A stretch of DNA of 64,000 nt, from contig NZ_OBQI01000001.1 of the NCBI RefSeq assembly GCF_900221005.1, positions 806,001 to 870,000 of the forward strand. The letters run 5' to 3'. Made by a program: the position numbers and the translations under genes. The notes beneath the pieces were generated by a model. The model was not told the origin of the DNA, ran no database searches, and was given only the letters and a program-made list of their open reading frames with translations. The DNA is from Blastococcus aggregatus (lineage in GTDB: Bacteria > Actinomycetota > Actinomycetes > Mycobacteriales > Geodermatophilaceae). Shown piece by piece: positions 1,691 through 11,369 of this stretch (position 1 is the stretch's first letter; every line of letters begins with the position of its first letter).

Positions 1691-2248
1691 TCAGGCGGGC
1701 AGGTCGCCGCCCGGGCCGGCCGCCTCGGCGAGCAGCCGCTCGCGGTGCTCCTCGGGCAGCAGGTCGACGTACACCGTGCCGTTCAGGTGGTCGACCTCGT
1801 GCTGGAGGCAGCGCGCGGCCATGCCGGTCGCCTCGATCCGCACCGGGCCGCCGTGCACGTCGACGCCGTCGACCCGGGCGCGGAAGGCACGCGGCAGCTC
1901 GGCGTAGGGGCCGGGCACCGACAGGCAGCCCTCCTCGGTGACCTCCTCGGCGGGCTCGCCGTCGGCGGGGTCGAGGATCGTCAGCGTCGGGTTGACGACG
2001 TAGCCGACCACGTCCTCGCCCTCGGCGTCCGGGCAGTCGATGACGAAGATCCGCGCGTCGACGCCGATCTGGTTGGCCGCCAGCCCCACGCCGTCGGCCG
2101 CCTCCATGGAGGCGAACATGTCCAGCACCAGGTGGCGCAGCTCCCGGTCGAACTCGGTCACCGGGGCGCAGGAGCGGTGCAGGACCGGGTTGCTGCCGTA
2201 GGTGACGATGGGGCGGGCGACGCCGTCGTAACGGCCGGGCAGGCGCAT
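1691..2248 (-). CDS. def: Peptide deformylase
   Basis: This enzyme removes the N-formyl group from nascent proteins in the cytosol. All three deformylase motifs are present in the 185-residue product: GVGLAANQIG, EEGCLSVPG with the metal-binding Cys, and QHEVDHLNG with two metal-binding His and the catalytic Glu. The length is normal for the family. The frame is open 39 codons further upstream, but that extension is Arg/Gly-rich and unlike the family, so the ATG at 2248 was chosen; a weak AGGA lies about 10 bases before it. The gene diverges from plsC across a 167-bp gap. Confidence 0.95.
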   Translation of the reverse strand: MRLPGRYDGVARPIVTYGSNPVLHRSCAPVTEFDRELRHLVLDMFASMEAADGVGLAANQIGVDARIFVIDCPDAEGEDVVGYVVNPTLTILDPADGEPAEEVTEEGCLSVPGPYAELPRAFRARVDGVDVHGGPVRIEATGMAARCLQHEVDHLNGTVYVDLLPEEHRERLLAEAAGPGGDLPA

Positions 2249-2415
2249 GACGACGAATCCTAGGGACGTCGGCCCGCTGTACCGACACCCTCCGGTGCCC
2301 GCGCTCCGCGCAGGGGTGCCTCCGCAGCGGAGTCGACGGCGTCGGGGAGGATGCGGACGCCGCACGAGCCGCCGGTCCCTGCCGTCGGCCGGGCGGGCCG
2401 AGGAGGGAGCACCCG

Positions 2416-3084
2416 GTGTTCTACGTCATCGCCCGGTTCGTCATCCGCCCGCTGCTGTGGGTGCTGCTGCGGCCCCGCGTGACCGGCAGGGAGAACGTGC
2501 CGCTCACCGGGCCGGTGATCCTGGCCAGCAACCACCTGTCCTTCATCGACAGCATCGTGATCCCGATCGTGGCGCCACGCAGGGTCGCGTTGCTGGCCAA
2601 GGCCGAGTACTTCACCGGCAGCGGGATCTCCGGCTGGTTCACCCGGGCGCTGTTCACCGCCCTGGGTGCGCACCCCGTCGAGCGGGAGACCCACCGGGCC
2701 GCGCAGGCCGCGCTCGACACGGCGCTGGGCGTGCTGCAGAGCGGGCTGGCGTTCGGCCTCTACCCCGAGGGCACCCGCTCGCGGGACGGCCGGCTGGCCC
2801 GCGGCAAGACCGGCGTGGCCTGGCTGGCGCTGACCGCCGACTGCCCGGTCGTCCCCGTCGCCGTCTCCGGCACCGACCGCGTGCAGCCCGTCGGCGCCCG
2901 CTGGCCGCGGCCGCGCCGGGTGTCGGTGACCTTCGGGGAGCCGCTCACCTTCCCCGAGCACCGGGGACTGGCCGGGAAGGGCAAGGCCCGGCGGGAGGTC
3001 ACCGACGTGATCATGGAGCGGATCGCCGCGCTGTCCGGCCAGGAGAAGGACGGCTGGGGCACTCCTCCGGGAGCGGCCGCCTGA
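2416..3084 (+). CDS. 1-acyl-sn-glycerol-3-phosphate acyltransferase (PlsC family)
   Basis: This 222-residue protein transfers an acyl chain to lysophosphatidic acid or a similar acceptor at the inner face of the membrane, in phospholipid synthesis. The catalytic H-x4-D box is present as NHLSFIDS near residue 39, and the acceptor-binding motif as YPEGTRSRDG near residue 116. An amphipathic hydrophobic N-terminus (residues 1-20) probably docks it on the membrane. The GTG at 2416 is preceded by GGAGGGAG. Its stop codon lies inside a short hairpin shared with the convergent thioesterase gene. The exact acyl acceptor is not shown by the sequence. Confidence 0.9.
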   Translation: MFYVIARFVIRPLLWVLLRPRVTGRENVPLTGPVILASNHLSFIDSIVIPIVAPRRVALLAKAEYFTGSGISGWFTRALFTALGAHPVERETHRAAQAALDTALGVLQSGLAFGLYPEGTRSRDGRLARGKTGVAWLALTADCPVVPVAVSGTDRVQPVGARWPRPRRVSVTFGEPLTFPEHRGLAGKGKARREVTDVIMERIAALSGQEKDGWGTPPGAAA

Positions 3085-3099
3085 CCGGCGCGGTCAGGC
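3079..3099. terminator. Hairpin shared by convergent plsC and thioesterase ends
   Basis: Arms of 8 bp, GCCTGACC and GGTCAGGC, flank a 5-nt loop. The hairpin covers both stop codons (3082-3084 and 3094-3096). It has no T-tract, as is usual for actinobacterial terminators. It is probably bidirectional. Confidence 0.55.
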
Positions 3100-3474
3100 C
3101 GCCAGGCGCGCCCGGAGGTCGTCGGGCCACGCCGTCGACGCGCCGTCGCTGAGGCAGACGTAGGTCGTGCGCACGGTGCAGCACAGCCGCTCGCCGACGC
3201 GGATCTCGAACCGCACGGTCAGGCTGGTCCGGCCGAGCTTCTCCAGCGCGGCGTCGACGGTCACGGTGTCGCCGTGCCGCGCCGAGGAGCGCCACTCCAG
3301 GGTGCTCGCGACGACGACGTACTGATGGCCGCGGTAGGCCGACCAGTCGATGCCCTGCTCGACCCACCACGGGGTCAGCGCCTCGTCGGCCCAGACCAGG
3401 TAGTGGGCGTTGAAGACGATGCCCTGCATGTCGCACTCGGCGAACCGGACGGGGGCACTCCACACCTGGGACAC
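3094..3474 (-). CDS. Hot-dog fold acyl-CoA thioesterase (4HBT family)
   Basis: This 126-residue protein carries the 4-hydroxybenzoyl-CoA thioesterase signature: a family-type segment FAECDMQGIVFNAHYLVWAD with the conserved Asp and Asn, followed by a hot-dog core. It likely hydrolyses an acyl-CoA thioester in the cytosol; chain-length preference is not evident. The GTG at 3474 is chosen because an ACGCTA (TAGCGT on its strand) box at 3483-3488 lies 8 bases upstream, typical of a leaderless transcript, and the conserved fold begins at once. It diverges from the PPOX gene with both promoters in a 40-bp gap. Confidence 0.85.
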   Translation of the reverse strand: MSQVWSAPVRFAECDMQGIVFNAHYLVWADEALTPWWVEQGIDWSAYRGHQYVVVASTLEWRSSARHGDTVTVDAALEKLGRTSLTVRFEIRVGERLCCTVRTTYVCLSDGASTAWPDDLRARLAA

Positions 3475-3482
3475 GAGGCGCC

Positions 3483-4215: not shown

Positions 4216-4641
4216 ATGACATTCGATCTCCAGGTCGTCGTCGATTCGAACGCTCCGCACGAGCTCGCCGACTGGTGGGCCGAGGCGCTGGGGTGGCAGG
4301 TGGAACCCCAGGACGAGGCGTTCATCACCCGCATGGTGCAGGCCGGCGCCGCGAGCGAGGCCGACACGATGCGCCACCGCGGTGCGCTGGTCTGGGCGCT
4401 GGGCGCGGCCATCACCTCACCGGACCCGGGGCGGCCGCGGGTGCTCTTCCAGCGGGTCCCGGAGCCGAAGACGGTCAAGAACCGGGTGCACCTCGACGTG
4501 CGCGTGGGGCCCGGGCGGCGGGAGGCCGAGATCGCCCGGCTGGTCGCGCTCGGCGCGACGGAGCTCTGGCGGGAGTCGCAGGGGCCGATGGAGTGGGCGA
4601 CGCTGGCCGATCCCCAGGGCAACGAGTTCTGCGTCGCCTGA
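4216..4641 (+). CDS. VOC-family (glyoxalase-like) protein
   Basis: This 141-residue protein has the vicinal-oxygen-chelate arrangement: an N-terminal beta strand (FDLQVVVDS), a helix over ELADWWAEALGW, then a second repeat with HLDVRVGPGR and the terminal ADPQGNEFCVA segment that usually supplies the metal-ligand Glu. It could be a dioxygenase-, lyase- or resistance-type enzyme, and the sequence does not say which. The start is fixed by a leaderless -10 box. It converges with a small hypothetical gene 4 bp beyond its stop. Confidence 0.8.
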   Translation: MTFDLQVVVDSNAPHELADWWAEALGWQVEPQDEAFITRMVQAGAASEADTMRHRGALVWALGAAITSPDPGRPRVLFQRVPEPKTVKNRVHLDVRVGPGRREAEIARLVALGATELWRESQGPMEWATLADPQGNEFCVA

Positions 4642-4645
4642 CGGT

Positions 4646-4843
4646 TCAGTGCTCGGGCAGGTCGCGCTGCAGCCGGCGGTCGGCCACCGCCCGCTCCGCG
4701 AGCACGCGGGCGCGCTGGACCCGGCGTCTGCGACCGCCGTCCCGGTGGCGCGCGTCCTCGACGAGCTGGAGGGCGGCGAGCACGCTCGCCTGCACCTCTC
4801 CTGCGCGGGGGACGGCGGGCCGAGCCGGCTCTGCCGACGTCAT
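4646..4843 (-). CDS. Small hypothetical Arg-rich protein
   Basis: The 65-residue product is not recognised. It has an Ala/Glu-rich helical region (EVQASVLAALQLVEDARH) followed by a strongly basic Arg-rich second half (RDGGRRRRVQRARVLAERAV). It has no signal peptide or cysteine. ATG at 4843 is chosen over an upstream in-frame start because GGAGAAGAGGGA precedes it by about 5 bases. The basic tail could bind nucleic acid, but that is speculation. It may instead be a fortuitous frame. Confidence 0.45.
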   Translation of the reverse strand: MTSAEPARPAVPRAGEVQASVLAALQLVEDARHRDGGRRRRVQRARVLAERAVADRRLQRDLPEH

Positions 4844-8294: not shown

Positions 8295-9785
8295 TCAGAA
8301 CGGCGGTGGGTCGTCGTCGACCGGGCTCGGTCGCGGTGGCGGTAGCGCCCGCTGATCGCGGAGCCCCGGTGGTCGGGTGCTCCTGGTGATGCCCGACGGG
8401 GTCGTCACGTGCAGGGTGCCGTCGGGGTCCATGCGGAAGCGCCAGCCGCGGGCGAAGGTCTTGAGCCGGTGGTGGCTGCGGCACAGGCAGCAGAGGTTGT
8501 CGCAGCTGGTTCGTCCGCCGCAGTCGTAGGCCACGACGTGGTCGGCGTCGGTGCGGGCGGCGGGCTGGCCGCAGCCGGGGTGGCGGCAGGTGCGGTCGCG
8601 GAGCCGGAGGAAGCGTTCCTGGGCTGCGGTGTGGCTGTAGCCGGGCACTTCGGGTGGTGGGCCGAGGACGGGGCAGTCGCAGTCGCAGTCGGCGGCCTTC
8701 CCGTGCTCTGCGCAGCCGCGGGCGACGAGCCGGGTGAGTTCGGCGAGGCTCGCGGTGGCCAGCAGGGCGCCGTCGTCGTCGGTGAGCGCCAGCGCGAGGC
8801 TGCCGCCGGGCGGTGCCTGCACACCGAGAGCGCCCAGCTGGGTCAGTAGTTCGCGCAGGTGGGCAGCGGTGACCGGGGCGCCGGCCACGGTCGGCATCCA
8901 TGCAGCGTCGACCGGCTCGCACTGTCCCCCCAGGGTTGCCAGAGGCGCGGTGATCGTCAGGTGGCCGGTGATCGCCGGTCGGTCGTCGTCCCGCGTGCCC
9001 AGCACCAGCGCCGCGTGCGCCTCGGCGCGCAGGACTCCGATGGGCCGGTCATCCCCGGCGGTCTTCGCCAGCTGGGCGGCCTGGTCGATGACCGACCACA
9101 TCGCCGCCGCCACGGCCGAGGGTGCCTCGGTCGTGAGCGCCGACATGCCGTCCGCCGTCGGGTACAGCCGGACCGCGGCGCGGCGTTCGGCCTCGATCCG
9201 GCGCCGCTCGGCGAACTCCTCGTCCGCCGCGATTGCGGCGGCGATCAGCTTCTTCCGCAGCTTCCCCGACGAGATCGAGGCCGCGACCGGTAGCACCGCG
9301 GGCACCACCACCGCGATGACCTCGTCCGAGGCGGTGCCGAGGACGTCGGCGAAGATCCGCGCCCGGTAGTCGTCCAGCCGACCGGCCGCCCGCGCCGCGT
9401 GCACGGCCGGCATCCGCTCCACCAGCTGGTAGGCGTCGGACAGCCTCCCGGTCGCGTAGGGGCCACCGCAGTTGAGCACCATCGCCAGCTCGTCGGGCAG
9501 GAACTCCGACGTCCCCGGCACCGGCGACCCCGCACCCCGCCGCCGAGCACCGGGGTGTCCCGGCGGCGGGTCGTCGGTATCCGGCCGGGCGGCGGCCAGC
9601 GCCATCACCAGCTCCGCCTCGTAGGCCGCCTGCATCGCCTTCTGGGCCTGCACCCGCTGCAGCTCGACGACCACCTCCTCGGACGTCAGCAGCTCGATCG
9701 GGAAGCGGTCGACCGACGGCGGCTGGTGCAGCCACCACTCGACCAGCCCACCTTCCGGCGGGCTCGTCGAGTCGGTCACCGTCAT
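8295..9785 (-). CDS. DUF222 (13E12 repeat family) HNH endonuclease-like protein
   Basis: The 496-residue protein carries the DUF222 domain over roughly its first 330 residues and a C-terminal HNH nuclease motif: CRHPGCGQPAARTDADHVVA, then a conserved Asn and CCLCRSHHRLKT. Together these supply the treble-clef zinc ligands and the catalytic His. The family is abundant and often multicopy in actinobacteria; its biological role is unsettled. ATG at 9785 is followed upstream by a near-perfect LexA box (9789-9804), pointing to DNA-damage induction. A tail rich in Pro and Asp ends the protein. The sortase gene ends 41 bp upstream on the same strand. Confidence 0.9.
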   Translation of the reverse strand: MTVTDSTSPPEGGLVEWWLHQPPSVDRFPIELLTSEEVVVELQRVQAQKAMQAAYEAELVMALAAARPDTDDPPPGHPGARRRGAGSPVPGTSEFLPDELAMVLNCGGPYATGRLSDAYQLVERMPAVHAARAAGRLDDYRARIFADVLGTASDEVIAVVVPAVLPVAASISSGKLRKKLIAAAIAADEEFAERRRIEAERRAAVRLYPTADGMSALTTEAPSAVAAAMWSVIDQAAQLAKTAGDDRPIGVLRAEAHAALVLGTRDDDRPAITGHLTITAPLATLGGQCEPVDAAWMPTVAGAPVTAAHLRELLTQLGALGVQAPPGGSLALALTDDDGALLATASLAELTRLVARGCAEHGKAADCDCDCPVLGPPPEVPGYSHTAAQERFLRLRDRTCRHPGCGQPAARTDADHVVAYDCGGRTSCDNLCCLCRSHHRLKTFARGWRFRMDPDGTLHVTTPSGITRSTRPPGLRDQRALPPPRPSPVDDDPPPF

Positions 9786-9826: not shown

Positions 9827-10471
9827 TCAGCCCTCGATGACCGTCGCGAACACCACCGTGTTGTCCGTGCTGGTCCCGGCGTCCTCCACGAACTCCCCGC
9901 CGCAGGTCACGAGCGCGACGTCGGCGTCCGCCGGATGCCCGTTGAGCGTGTCCGACAGCGCGGACGTGGCCTTGTCCAGGCCCGTCACCGGCTCGCCCAG
10001 CACCTGCAGCCGCAGCACGGCGCCGGTGCCGTCGCGGAGGGTGACCTCGTCCCCGGGGCTCAGCGTGTGCAGCCGGTCGAAGACCGCCCCTCCGCCGGCC
10101 TGCTGATGGCCGAGGATGACCGCCATCTGGCCGGAGCCGGGCAGCGGGCCGTCCGACCACCACGACGTGGTCGCCATCGACTCGGGCACCCCGTAGCCGT
10201 CGACCATCTGACCGGTGAACGGGTTCTCGTAGCGCACGGTCCCGCGGGACTCCACGGGGGTGTCCACCCCGATCGCCGGAATGCTCAGCGCCGCCGGCTG
10301 GATGGGCCCGACGGGTCCCCCGTCGAGCGGTGCCGACGCTCCGGGGGCCGGCTGCGGGGTCGCACCCGCATCCGGCCGCCCGGCGACGAGCAGCAGCATG
10401 CCGATTCCTACCGCCAGCACCACCAGGAAGGCGCCGACGGTACGGACATCAATCCCCCGTACGAACCGCAC
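9827..10471 (-). CDS. Class F-like sortase
   Basis: This membrane-anchored transpeptidase is about 214 residues long. An N-terminal transmembrane helix (TVGAFLVVLAVGIGMLLLVAG) is followed by a Pro/Ala linker and a sortase barrel with the catalytic His in AVILGHQQAGGGAVFDRL and the catalytic Cys in VALVTCGGEF. The position after the Cys where class F enzymes usually show an Arg before Asp-Asn reads TSTDNTVVFA, so the third catalytic residue is not obvious. Two GTG codons (10498 and 10471) could start it, neither with a strong ribosome-binding site. Both make it overlap the 3' end of the secreted-protein gene, a likely substrate. Confidence 0.82.
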   Translation of the reverse strand: MRFVRGIDVRTVGAFLVVLAVGIGMLLLVAGRPDAGATPQPAPGASAPLDGGPVGPIQPAALSIPAIGVDTPVESRGTVRYENPFTGQMVDGYGVPESMATTSWWSDGPLPGSGQMAVILGHQQAGGGAVFDRLHTLSPGDEVTLRDGTGAVLRLQVLGEPVTGLDKATSALSDTLNGHPADADVALVTCGGEFVEDAGTSTDNTVVFATVIEG

Positions 10472-11369
10472 GGCCCCGCATCCAGTGTCCGGCCGCACCC
10501 GCGCCCGCCAGGAGCACCAGCCCGCCTGCGACGGCGGTCAGCGGCACCGAGGTGTCGTCGGCCCGGGCCGAGTCGGCGCCGGTCGGGGCGTAGCCTAGGT
10601 AGGCGACCGGCTGCGCCGCCGGCGCGGGGGTGTGCGGCGCCGGGGTGGCCGCCGGCGGCTGCTGAGTGGGGGCGGAGACCGGCGGGGTGGTCGGCTTCGG
10701 CGTCTCGGCCGGGGCGGCGGCCGCCGGGACGCACGCCTGGAGCGCCGCGCCGAGCGCGAGCAGGCCGTCGATCAGCGTCGGGAGCTCAGGGCTCTCGCCG
10801 CCCGGGATCTCCTCGTCGGGCAGCTCCTCGCCGGGCTGCTCCTCGGGGGTCTCGGCACCGGGAACGGGGATCGGCAGGTCCAGGGCGGACGCGTCGTCCG
10901 CGGCCACCGGAGCGGCGGCGGGCGGCGCGTCCGTCAGGCCGCCGAGCAGTTCCTCGAGCAGCTCCTGCAGCGCCGCCAGGTCACCGGGCAACGGCGCCCC
11001 GCCGCCGCCGAGGAGGGCCAGCAGGTCGGCGAGCACGTCGGCGAGCTCCAGCGGCAGCGCGATCAGGCCGTTCAGGATCAGCTCGATGGCGTCCGCGACA
11101 CCGTCCACGCAGTTCTCCGGCAGCATCGCGGCGTCCGCCAGCTGCTGGAAGGCGGCCCGGATCGCCGGGGGCACCTCGAAGGCGGGCACCCCGGGGGCCG
11201 TCTGGGCCGACGGCGCCTCGGCCGCCAGCCCGTCCAGGAAGCCGGTCACGGTGTCGACCGGGTCGGCCGCAGCGGCCGTACCAGCGGGAACGGCGACCAA
11301 CGCCGCGGCGAGGCCGGTCGCCACGAGGGCGCGTCGCCCGGGTGACGAGGAGGAACGGCGCAGAGACAA
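10449..11369 (-). CDS. Secreted Ala/Pro-rich protein with sortase-signal-like C-terminus
   Basis: This is a 306-residue protein of unknown function. It has a signal peptide (residues 1-35; basic start, ALVATGLAAALVAVPAGTAAAA), a helical Leu-rich region around residues 40-150 with one Cys, an acidic Glu/Pro stretch, a second Cys, and a Thr/Pro/Gln-rich linker. The C-terminus has YAPTG, then about 10 polar residues, a hydrophobic segment (PLTAVAGGLVLLAGAGAAGH) and a basic tail (RGRAVR). That order is the layout of a cell-wall sorting signal, with YAPTG in place of LPxTG or LAxTG. It overlaps the downstream sortase gene, which suggests a dedicated enzyme-substrate pair. The start is a TTG at 11369. 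Confidence 0.75.
   Translation of the reverse strand: MSLRRSSSSPGRRALVATGLAAALVAVPAGTAAAADPVDTVTGFLDGLAAEAPSAQTAPGVPAFEVPPAIRAAFQQLADAAMLPENCVDGVADAIELILNGLIALPLELADVLADLLALLGGGGAPLPGDLAALQELLEELLGGLTDAPPAAAPVAADDASALDLPIPVPGAETPEEQPGEELPDEEIPGGESPELPTLIDGLLALGAALQACVPAAAAPAETPKPTTPPVSAPTQQPPAATPAPHTPAPAAQPVAYLGYAPTGADSARADDTSVPLTAVAGGLVLLAGAGAAGHWMRGRAVRTGD

Follow-up and report, generated by a model that had tools for sequence, protein, structure and literature searches.

A class F-related sortase gene overlapping the gene of a secreted protein with a YAPTG-type sorting signal in Blastococcus aggregatus: a probable dedicated pair

The first report of class F sortases concerned Cutibacterium acnes and gave LPXTG as the motif (PMC13257024). 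A 2026 study describes the physiological roles of the class as unknown; it saw no phenotype in Actinoplanes missouriensis once the four class F genes of that species had all been deleted, and, in the portion of that study available, LPXTG-like motifs and LAXTG were the only signals by which it looked for substrates (PMC13251363). Actinobacterial substrates have also been listed by LPXTG and LAETG annotation (PMC10924467). The recognition of LAXTG, the motifs of classes A to E and the active-site Arg of class E (R329 in SrtE1) are set out in PMC5148588, and in the class F enzymes of Actinobacteria the Arg is reported to be replaced by Asn (PMC6998099). Here we describe a sortase gene and an overlapping gene for a secreted protein ending in a YAPTG-type signal, found in a 64,000-nucleotide stretch of Blastococcus aggregatus DNA (contig NZ_OBQI01000001.1, positions 806,001 to 870,000; hereafter the window, whose numbering is used unless another locus is named), and we argue from sequence comparison that this two-gene cassette very probably encodes one wall protein together with its own dedicated sortase. 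The host is a soil actinobacterium, and its 4.62-Mb genome carries nine sortase genes.

Both genes, and all of the features located below within them, lie on the minus strand, with the sortase gene directly behind the substrate gene and the two frames overlapping. The substrate open reading frame (ORF; 10449..11369) begins with TTG and encodes 306 residues. The sortase ORF (9827..10498) encodes 223 residues if read from its first GTG or 214 residues from the GTG at 10471, which is the likelier start, and the coding overlap is 50 bp in the former case and 23 bp in the latter. The sortase has a membrane helix at residues 18-39 and a catalytic domain at about residues 67-223. By eye, the secreted protein has the architecture expected of a sortase substrate: an RR-containing signal peptide region (residues 1-34; 11268..11369), a helical body with two cysteines, a Pro-rich linker and a sorting signal in which YLGYAPTG (residues 257-264; 10578..10601, with YAPTG alone at 10578-10592) is followed by the polar spacer ADSARADDTS, a hydrophobic helix (residues 275-297; 10479..10547) and the basic tail RGRAVRTGD (residues 298-306; 10452..10478). 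The initial annotation had placed both ORFs correctly, and its description of the substrate end, as YAPTG, about 10 polar residues, a hydrophobic stretch and a basic tail overlapping a sortase gene, is borne out by the sequence.

We then surveyed the pair in 112 Geodermatophilaceae genomes. A protein search identified 28 orthologs of the sortase, which are 59-87% identical to it (the window itself aside) and sharply set off from the next listed sortases, at 41% identity or less. Relatives of the pair occur in Blastococcus, Geodermatophilus, Klenkia and Modestobacter, the closest belonging to a Blastococcus (91%). At every one of the 27 ortholog loci with readable DNA, a substrate with a Y[LP]GYAPT[GA]-hydrophobic-basic end was encoded directly upstream; at the 28th, in Klenkia terrae (G083), the upstream DNA contains an unread gap. 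The residue after the Thr is Ala in three of the 27 motifs (G004, G018 and G019) and Gly in the rest. As had been noted, the motif differs from LPxTG and LAxTG. It is longer than the five residues originally given and takes the form Y-x-G-Y-A-P-T-[G/A]. A degenerate DNA pattern for this motif had exactly one match per genome in 27 of the 112 genomes, each just upstream of a sortase ortholog, and no match in the 84 genomes of the family that have no ortholog, 80 of which contain other sortase matches (E ≤ 0.001). A reversed control pattern matched none of the 112 genomes. The motif was present in six genera. When the pattern was applied to a class-wide sample of 394 genomes, it matched in three (the window genome, G571 and G126), and the control pattern matched once, in one genome; the matches in G571 and G126 were rejected, the protein continuing past the motif and the 3 kb examined containing no sortase.

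This adjacency in 27 of 27 loci and the exclusive co-occurrence of motif and enzyme support the earlier proposal of a dedicated enzyme-substrate pair. Two observations had been named that would speak against it. One, that sortases of this type are never found beside such genes, is contradicted by the 27 paired loci. The other was the existence of substrate homologues that lack the YAPTG-type end. A protein search with the substrate gave matches in 26 of the 112 genomes, of which 24 were pair genomes; the matches in the remaining two (G012 and G026) were weak and were judged to be spurious. This search turned up no homologue lacking the YAPTG-type end; it also missed 4 of the 28 pair genomes and, because the protein body drifts so fast, could overlook such a homologue. 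The neighbourhoods of the pair differ. The same flanking gene, presumably cobT, lies beside the pair at 16 of the 28 loci and not at the others, and the pair stays together while the flanking genes change.

The enzyme is recognized as a sortase by the Pfam model PF04203 (52.9 bits against a cut-off of 26.6), it has the sortase beta-barrel fold, and its catalytic His131 (LGH; 10106..10108) and Cys199 (VTC-GG; 9902..9904) are invariant in all 28 orthologs. A sequence search of the PDB gave no useful match with the single protein, the best E value being 0.5, and sortase matches that were weak, the best at 0.01, with the alignment. In profile comparisons by hhalign, the orthologs matched a set of 23 class F sequences, all of which match the NCBIfam class F model NF033748 at E ≤ 1e-10, with an E value of 1.6e-31, as opposed to 9.3e-5 for the four class E sortases encoded in the window genome. 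A tree, in which class E was represented by one row, likewise grouped the enzyme with class F. (The tree and the counts exclude one locus, L096, because the final 90 residues of the sortase domain there are identical to those of L093.) The enzyme had been annotated as class F-like, and the grouping stands, with the qualification that it falls under the NF033748 cut-off and is a relative of the family rather than a filed member. With class F it shares the fold, the His and Cys, an Asn in the slot of the canonical Arg and a conserved Lys. It differs in having [VL]ALVTC where class F enzymes mostly have L[RH]L[VI]TC, in having additional sequence early in the domain (the YENPFTG region), in a Ser that replaces the class F Tyr (SYxDN) three residues before the Asn and in the loss of the Asp two residues after the catalytic His.

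All sortases are said to have a His-Cys-Arg triad (PMC13257024), a statement that does not hold for the YAPTG sortase. The slot of the canonical Arg is occupied by Asn213 (9860..9862), which hhalign pairs with the class F Asn. To place this residue, we compared the 28 orthologs with 8 mycobacterial-type relatives and 44 other class F-type rows, the last collected by similarity to the orthologs and so not a random sample of the class. The canonical slot was Asn in 28 of 28, 8 of 8 and 43 of 44 rows, respectively, the one remaining row having Asp. Loss of the Arg as something special to the YAPTG enzyme was therefore rejected, and on these alignments Asn for Arg appears to be a trait of actinobacterial class F. 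It does not exclude class F membership, because actinobacterial class F enzymes have been reported with Asn at this place (PMC6998099). The equivalence of Asn and Arg rests on that report, on the class F alignment and on a register with class E set by eye (QRLIIHA against DNTVVFA), the hhalign alignment of the orthologs with the four class E sortases having ended before the last strand. The initial annotation was right that the active site lacks an Arg, whereas the slot to which it pointed, T211 (TSTDN; YRDN in some class F enzymes), is Arg in 16 of the 44 class F-type rows and Thr, Glu, Leu or another residue in the others and, being Arg in so few, is not a fixed catalytic position.

We found no Arg column conserved across all of the rows compared. 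Arg85 (10244..10246) is the sole invariant Arg of the YAPTG clade (28/28); it is not class-wide, being Leu, Ile or Val in 42 of the 44 other class F-type rows, and it is at most a possible candidate for the missing catalytic Arg. Lys176 (9971..9973) is the only basic residue besides the His that is shared, present in 28 of 28, 8 of 8 and 41 of 44 rows within three adjacent alignment columns, and it is invariant in A3 as well. As a hypothesis, Lys176 may help Asn213 to replace the Arg. The absence of an Arg from the canonical slot, and of any conserved Arg in the clade save Arg85, could also mean that catalysis was lost with it, such that the protein is a pseudo-sortase that only binds or escorts its partner while the YAPTG protein is processed by another sortase or by none. 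The Ser in place of the class F Tyr and the lost Asp would fit such a decay. We consider it improbable, given that His131 and Cys199 are invariant in all of the orthologs and that the Asn is the norm for class F, in our rows as in PMC6998099, and not a private loss.

Of 28 substrate frames found, 25 were aligned; apart from two close kin, these are 29-52% identical to the window substrate. Only 14 columns are invariant, among them Y257, G259, Y260, A261, P262 and T263, which form the one invariant block of the alignment, and two cysteines, which probably form a disulfide. Near-absolute conservation of the motif in a drifting body, together with the link between motif and sortase, is more than chance. 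The window substrate matched no Pfam or NCBIfam model at E values up to 1. Its structure model was poor (mean predicted local distance difference test [pLDDT] score of 61), and this low-confidence model shows a small, mostly helical body and again the C-terminal helix. A poorly conserved body of unknown function leaves room for the view that the C-terminal helix does no more than anchor the protein permanently in the membrane, that the motif serves some purpose other than sortase cleavage and that the pair is simply an old operon. We hold this to be very unlikely: the invariant stretch sits exactly at the position of a sorting motif and is present in the family only with this sortase, and the pair has been kept together amid changing flanking genes.

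The YAPTG pair is not alone in its layout: other class F sortases, too, often have the gene of a secreted candidate substrate directly before their own. The window genome has four other class F sortases (L147-L150): L148 has just upstream a neighbouring candidate substrate that matches the NCBIfam model GVDTG_CTERM (NF058571), L149 has one recognized by eye, and no same-strand candidate was seen upstream of L147. Among six upstream proteins of class F sortases tested, GVDTG_CTERM matched three (L175, L181 and L152 were unmatched), and of the first 40 non-YAPTG sortase rows at least 19 have such a domain in the 600 nt before the sortase. The upstream proteins tested in the family were DUF4397 proteins (three) and a DUF4331 protein (one), the latter at L175 (G003), where the protein resembles those of Streptomyces-type loci. 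The GVDTG signal resembles the YAPTG signal in its order of C-terminal motif, hydrophobic helix and basic end. The two differ in distribution: GVDTG_CTERM matched in 100 of the 112 genomes, with up to nine matches in one genome, and is a shared signal, whereas YAPTG occurs once per genome. None of the 25 YAPTG substrates matched any NCBIfam model at E values up to 0.01, GVDTG included. The open-licence PMC literature contained no paper joining YAPTG with sortase and none with at least two of the terms GVDTG, GVETG and sortase.

Class E enzymes, which in Streptomyces anchor chaplins by LAXTG, share with the YAPTG system the actinobacterial setting. They keep the active-site Arg (PMC5148588), their profile match to the YAPTG sortase is far weaker than that of class F, and the YAPTG signal is set apart by the Tyr at P4 and by the YxG that precedes it. 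The window genome encodes four of them, one (L143) beside an LPNTG protein and two (L145 and L146) beside LASTG proteins, so that several of its sortases appear to have adjoining candidate substrates with different dialects. One could propose that a class E enzyme anchors the YAPTG protein, taking its motif for a relaxed LAXTG in which Tyr stands in for Leu, and that the overlapping sortase is redundant. In favour of this are the presence of the class E enzymes and the Ala at P3 and TG common to both motifs. It is scarcely credible, the motif being absent from all 84 genomes without a YAPTG sortase and its Tyr being invariant, not interchangeable with Leu.

Nearest by score to the YAPTG sortases, and their probable sister group (88/71), are class F-like sortases of other Mycobacteriales with [YF]P[VTL]Q[AS]xTG neighbours (L091, L092, L093 and L137-L139). 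Six of the eight mycobacterial-type relatives have this motif in the gene upstream, with an aromatic residue, [AS] and TG at the same spacing as in the YAPTG motif. They differ in having Gln for Tyr at P4, and some of the partners are very large, with frames of over 1200 residues. Because six of the eight carry this motif, enzyme and motif seem to change together between lineages. We lean, by a modest degree, towards a broader reading, in which a class F-derived lineage evolved one-enzyme, one-substrate orthogonality, with an eight-residue signal, an Arg-less site (His-Cys, Asn213 and Lys176) and co-divergence of enzyme and motif (YxGYAPT[G/A] in Geodermatophilaceae and [YF]PxQ[AS]xTG in other Mycobacteriales).

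Several observations weigh against these interpretations. NF033748 gives the enzyme 78.7 bits (E 3.5e-22) against its cut-off of 166, and the model is poor at residues 201-210, the loop that leads up to Asn213, with a mean pLDDT of 52. The genomes of one family are related, and the co-occurrence counts are not independent events. At one locus, in G031 (C1:2704589-2705390; L046 and L154), the sortase is intact, yet the substrate matches fall in two different frames. The sister group also departs from the pattern in two respects: the upstream ORFs of L092 (Gordonia spumicola, about 4294-4777) and L151 (G262), with the motifs YPLQAATG and YPVQAPTG, break off at the motif or shortly beyond it and lack the in-frame hydrophobic stretch expected of a sorting signal, and no such signal was seen upstream of the Nocardia sortases L094 and L095. 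The truncated ORFs may reflect a frameshift, an assembly error or a genuine oddity.

On the reading of a dedicated pair, the most likely function is to cut YAPT-G/A after the Thr and to display a single wall protein, with two cysteines, in covalent attachment. Following the general sortase mechanism, the substrate would be exported, its C-terminal helix would retain it in the membrane, Cys199 would cut between the Thr and the Gly (or Ala) of Y-x-G-Y-A-P-T-[G/A], and the protein would pass from the thioester to a peptidoglycan amine of a wall precursor, so that one helical protein with two cysteines would be exposed on the cell by a Pro-rich stalk. The chemistry would be performed by His131 and Cys199, with Asn213, presumably as in other class F sortases, and Lys176 as a possible helper steadying the oxyanion and the substrate. 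The odd motif would bar the other eight sortases of the genome from this substrate and the YAPTG enzyme from theirs. What is new here is a probably private pair that lies on a side branch of class F and has a sorting dialect of its own; the change from Arg to Asn in actinobacterial class F had already been published (PMC6998099). A YAPTG-like signal would escape the 2026 study, which, in the text available to us, lists substrates by LPXTG-like motifs and LAXTG alone (PMC13251363). Should the broader reading hold, it would supply a defined substrate dialect for a sortase class whose natural roles are said to be unknown, along with a sortase reaction that is orthogonal to LPXTG, LAXTG and GVDTG; if the enzyme proves active, the motif would join the sortase tags in use as one orthogonal to them. 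With a single enzyme, substrate and motif to work with, a peptide assay could test both the specificity and the Arg-less catalysis of the class directly.

Other class F loci offer candidate substrates of another kind. Of the 19 Streptomyces-type loci (L097-L115), 17 (all but L113 and L115) have as their closest upstream neighbour a protein with a C-terminal GGVxAGxGG- or GGIGAGxGG-type sequence followed by a hydrophobic stretch and RRR, and the secreted proteins with GGVGAGxGGTA-like ends from Streptomyces and kin (L097-L112 and L114) are candidate class F substrates. At two further loci, L150 of the window genome (contig C8, 3329-4420) and L179 of G002 (2212-3480), one open frame carries a class F sortase domain behind a DUF4397 domain, with a GAVEAGG or GGVAAGG stretch between the two, an arrangement that has the form of a natural fusion of a substrate-type domain with a sortase. 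In the window itself, the gene directly downstream of the YAPTG sortase (8295-9785), which is probably of the HNH/DUF222 type, is matched at two loci (L074 and L075) and at none of the other 26 compared. Because it is matched only there among the loci compared, it looks like a movable insertion.
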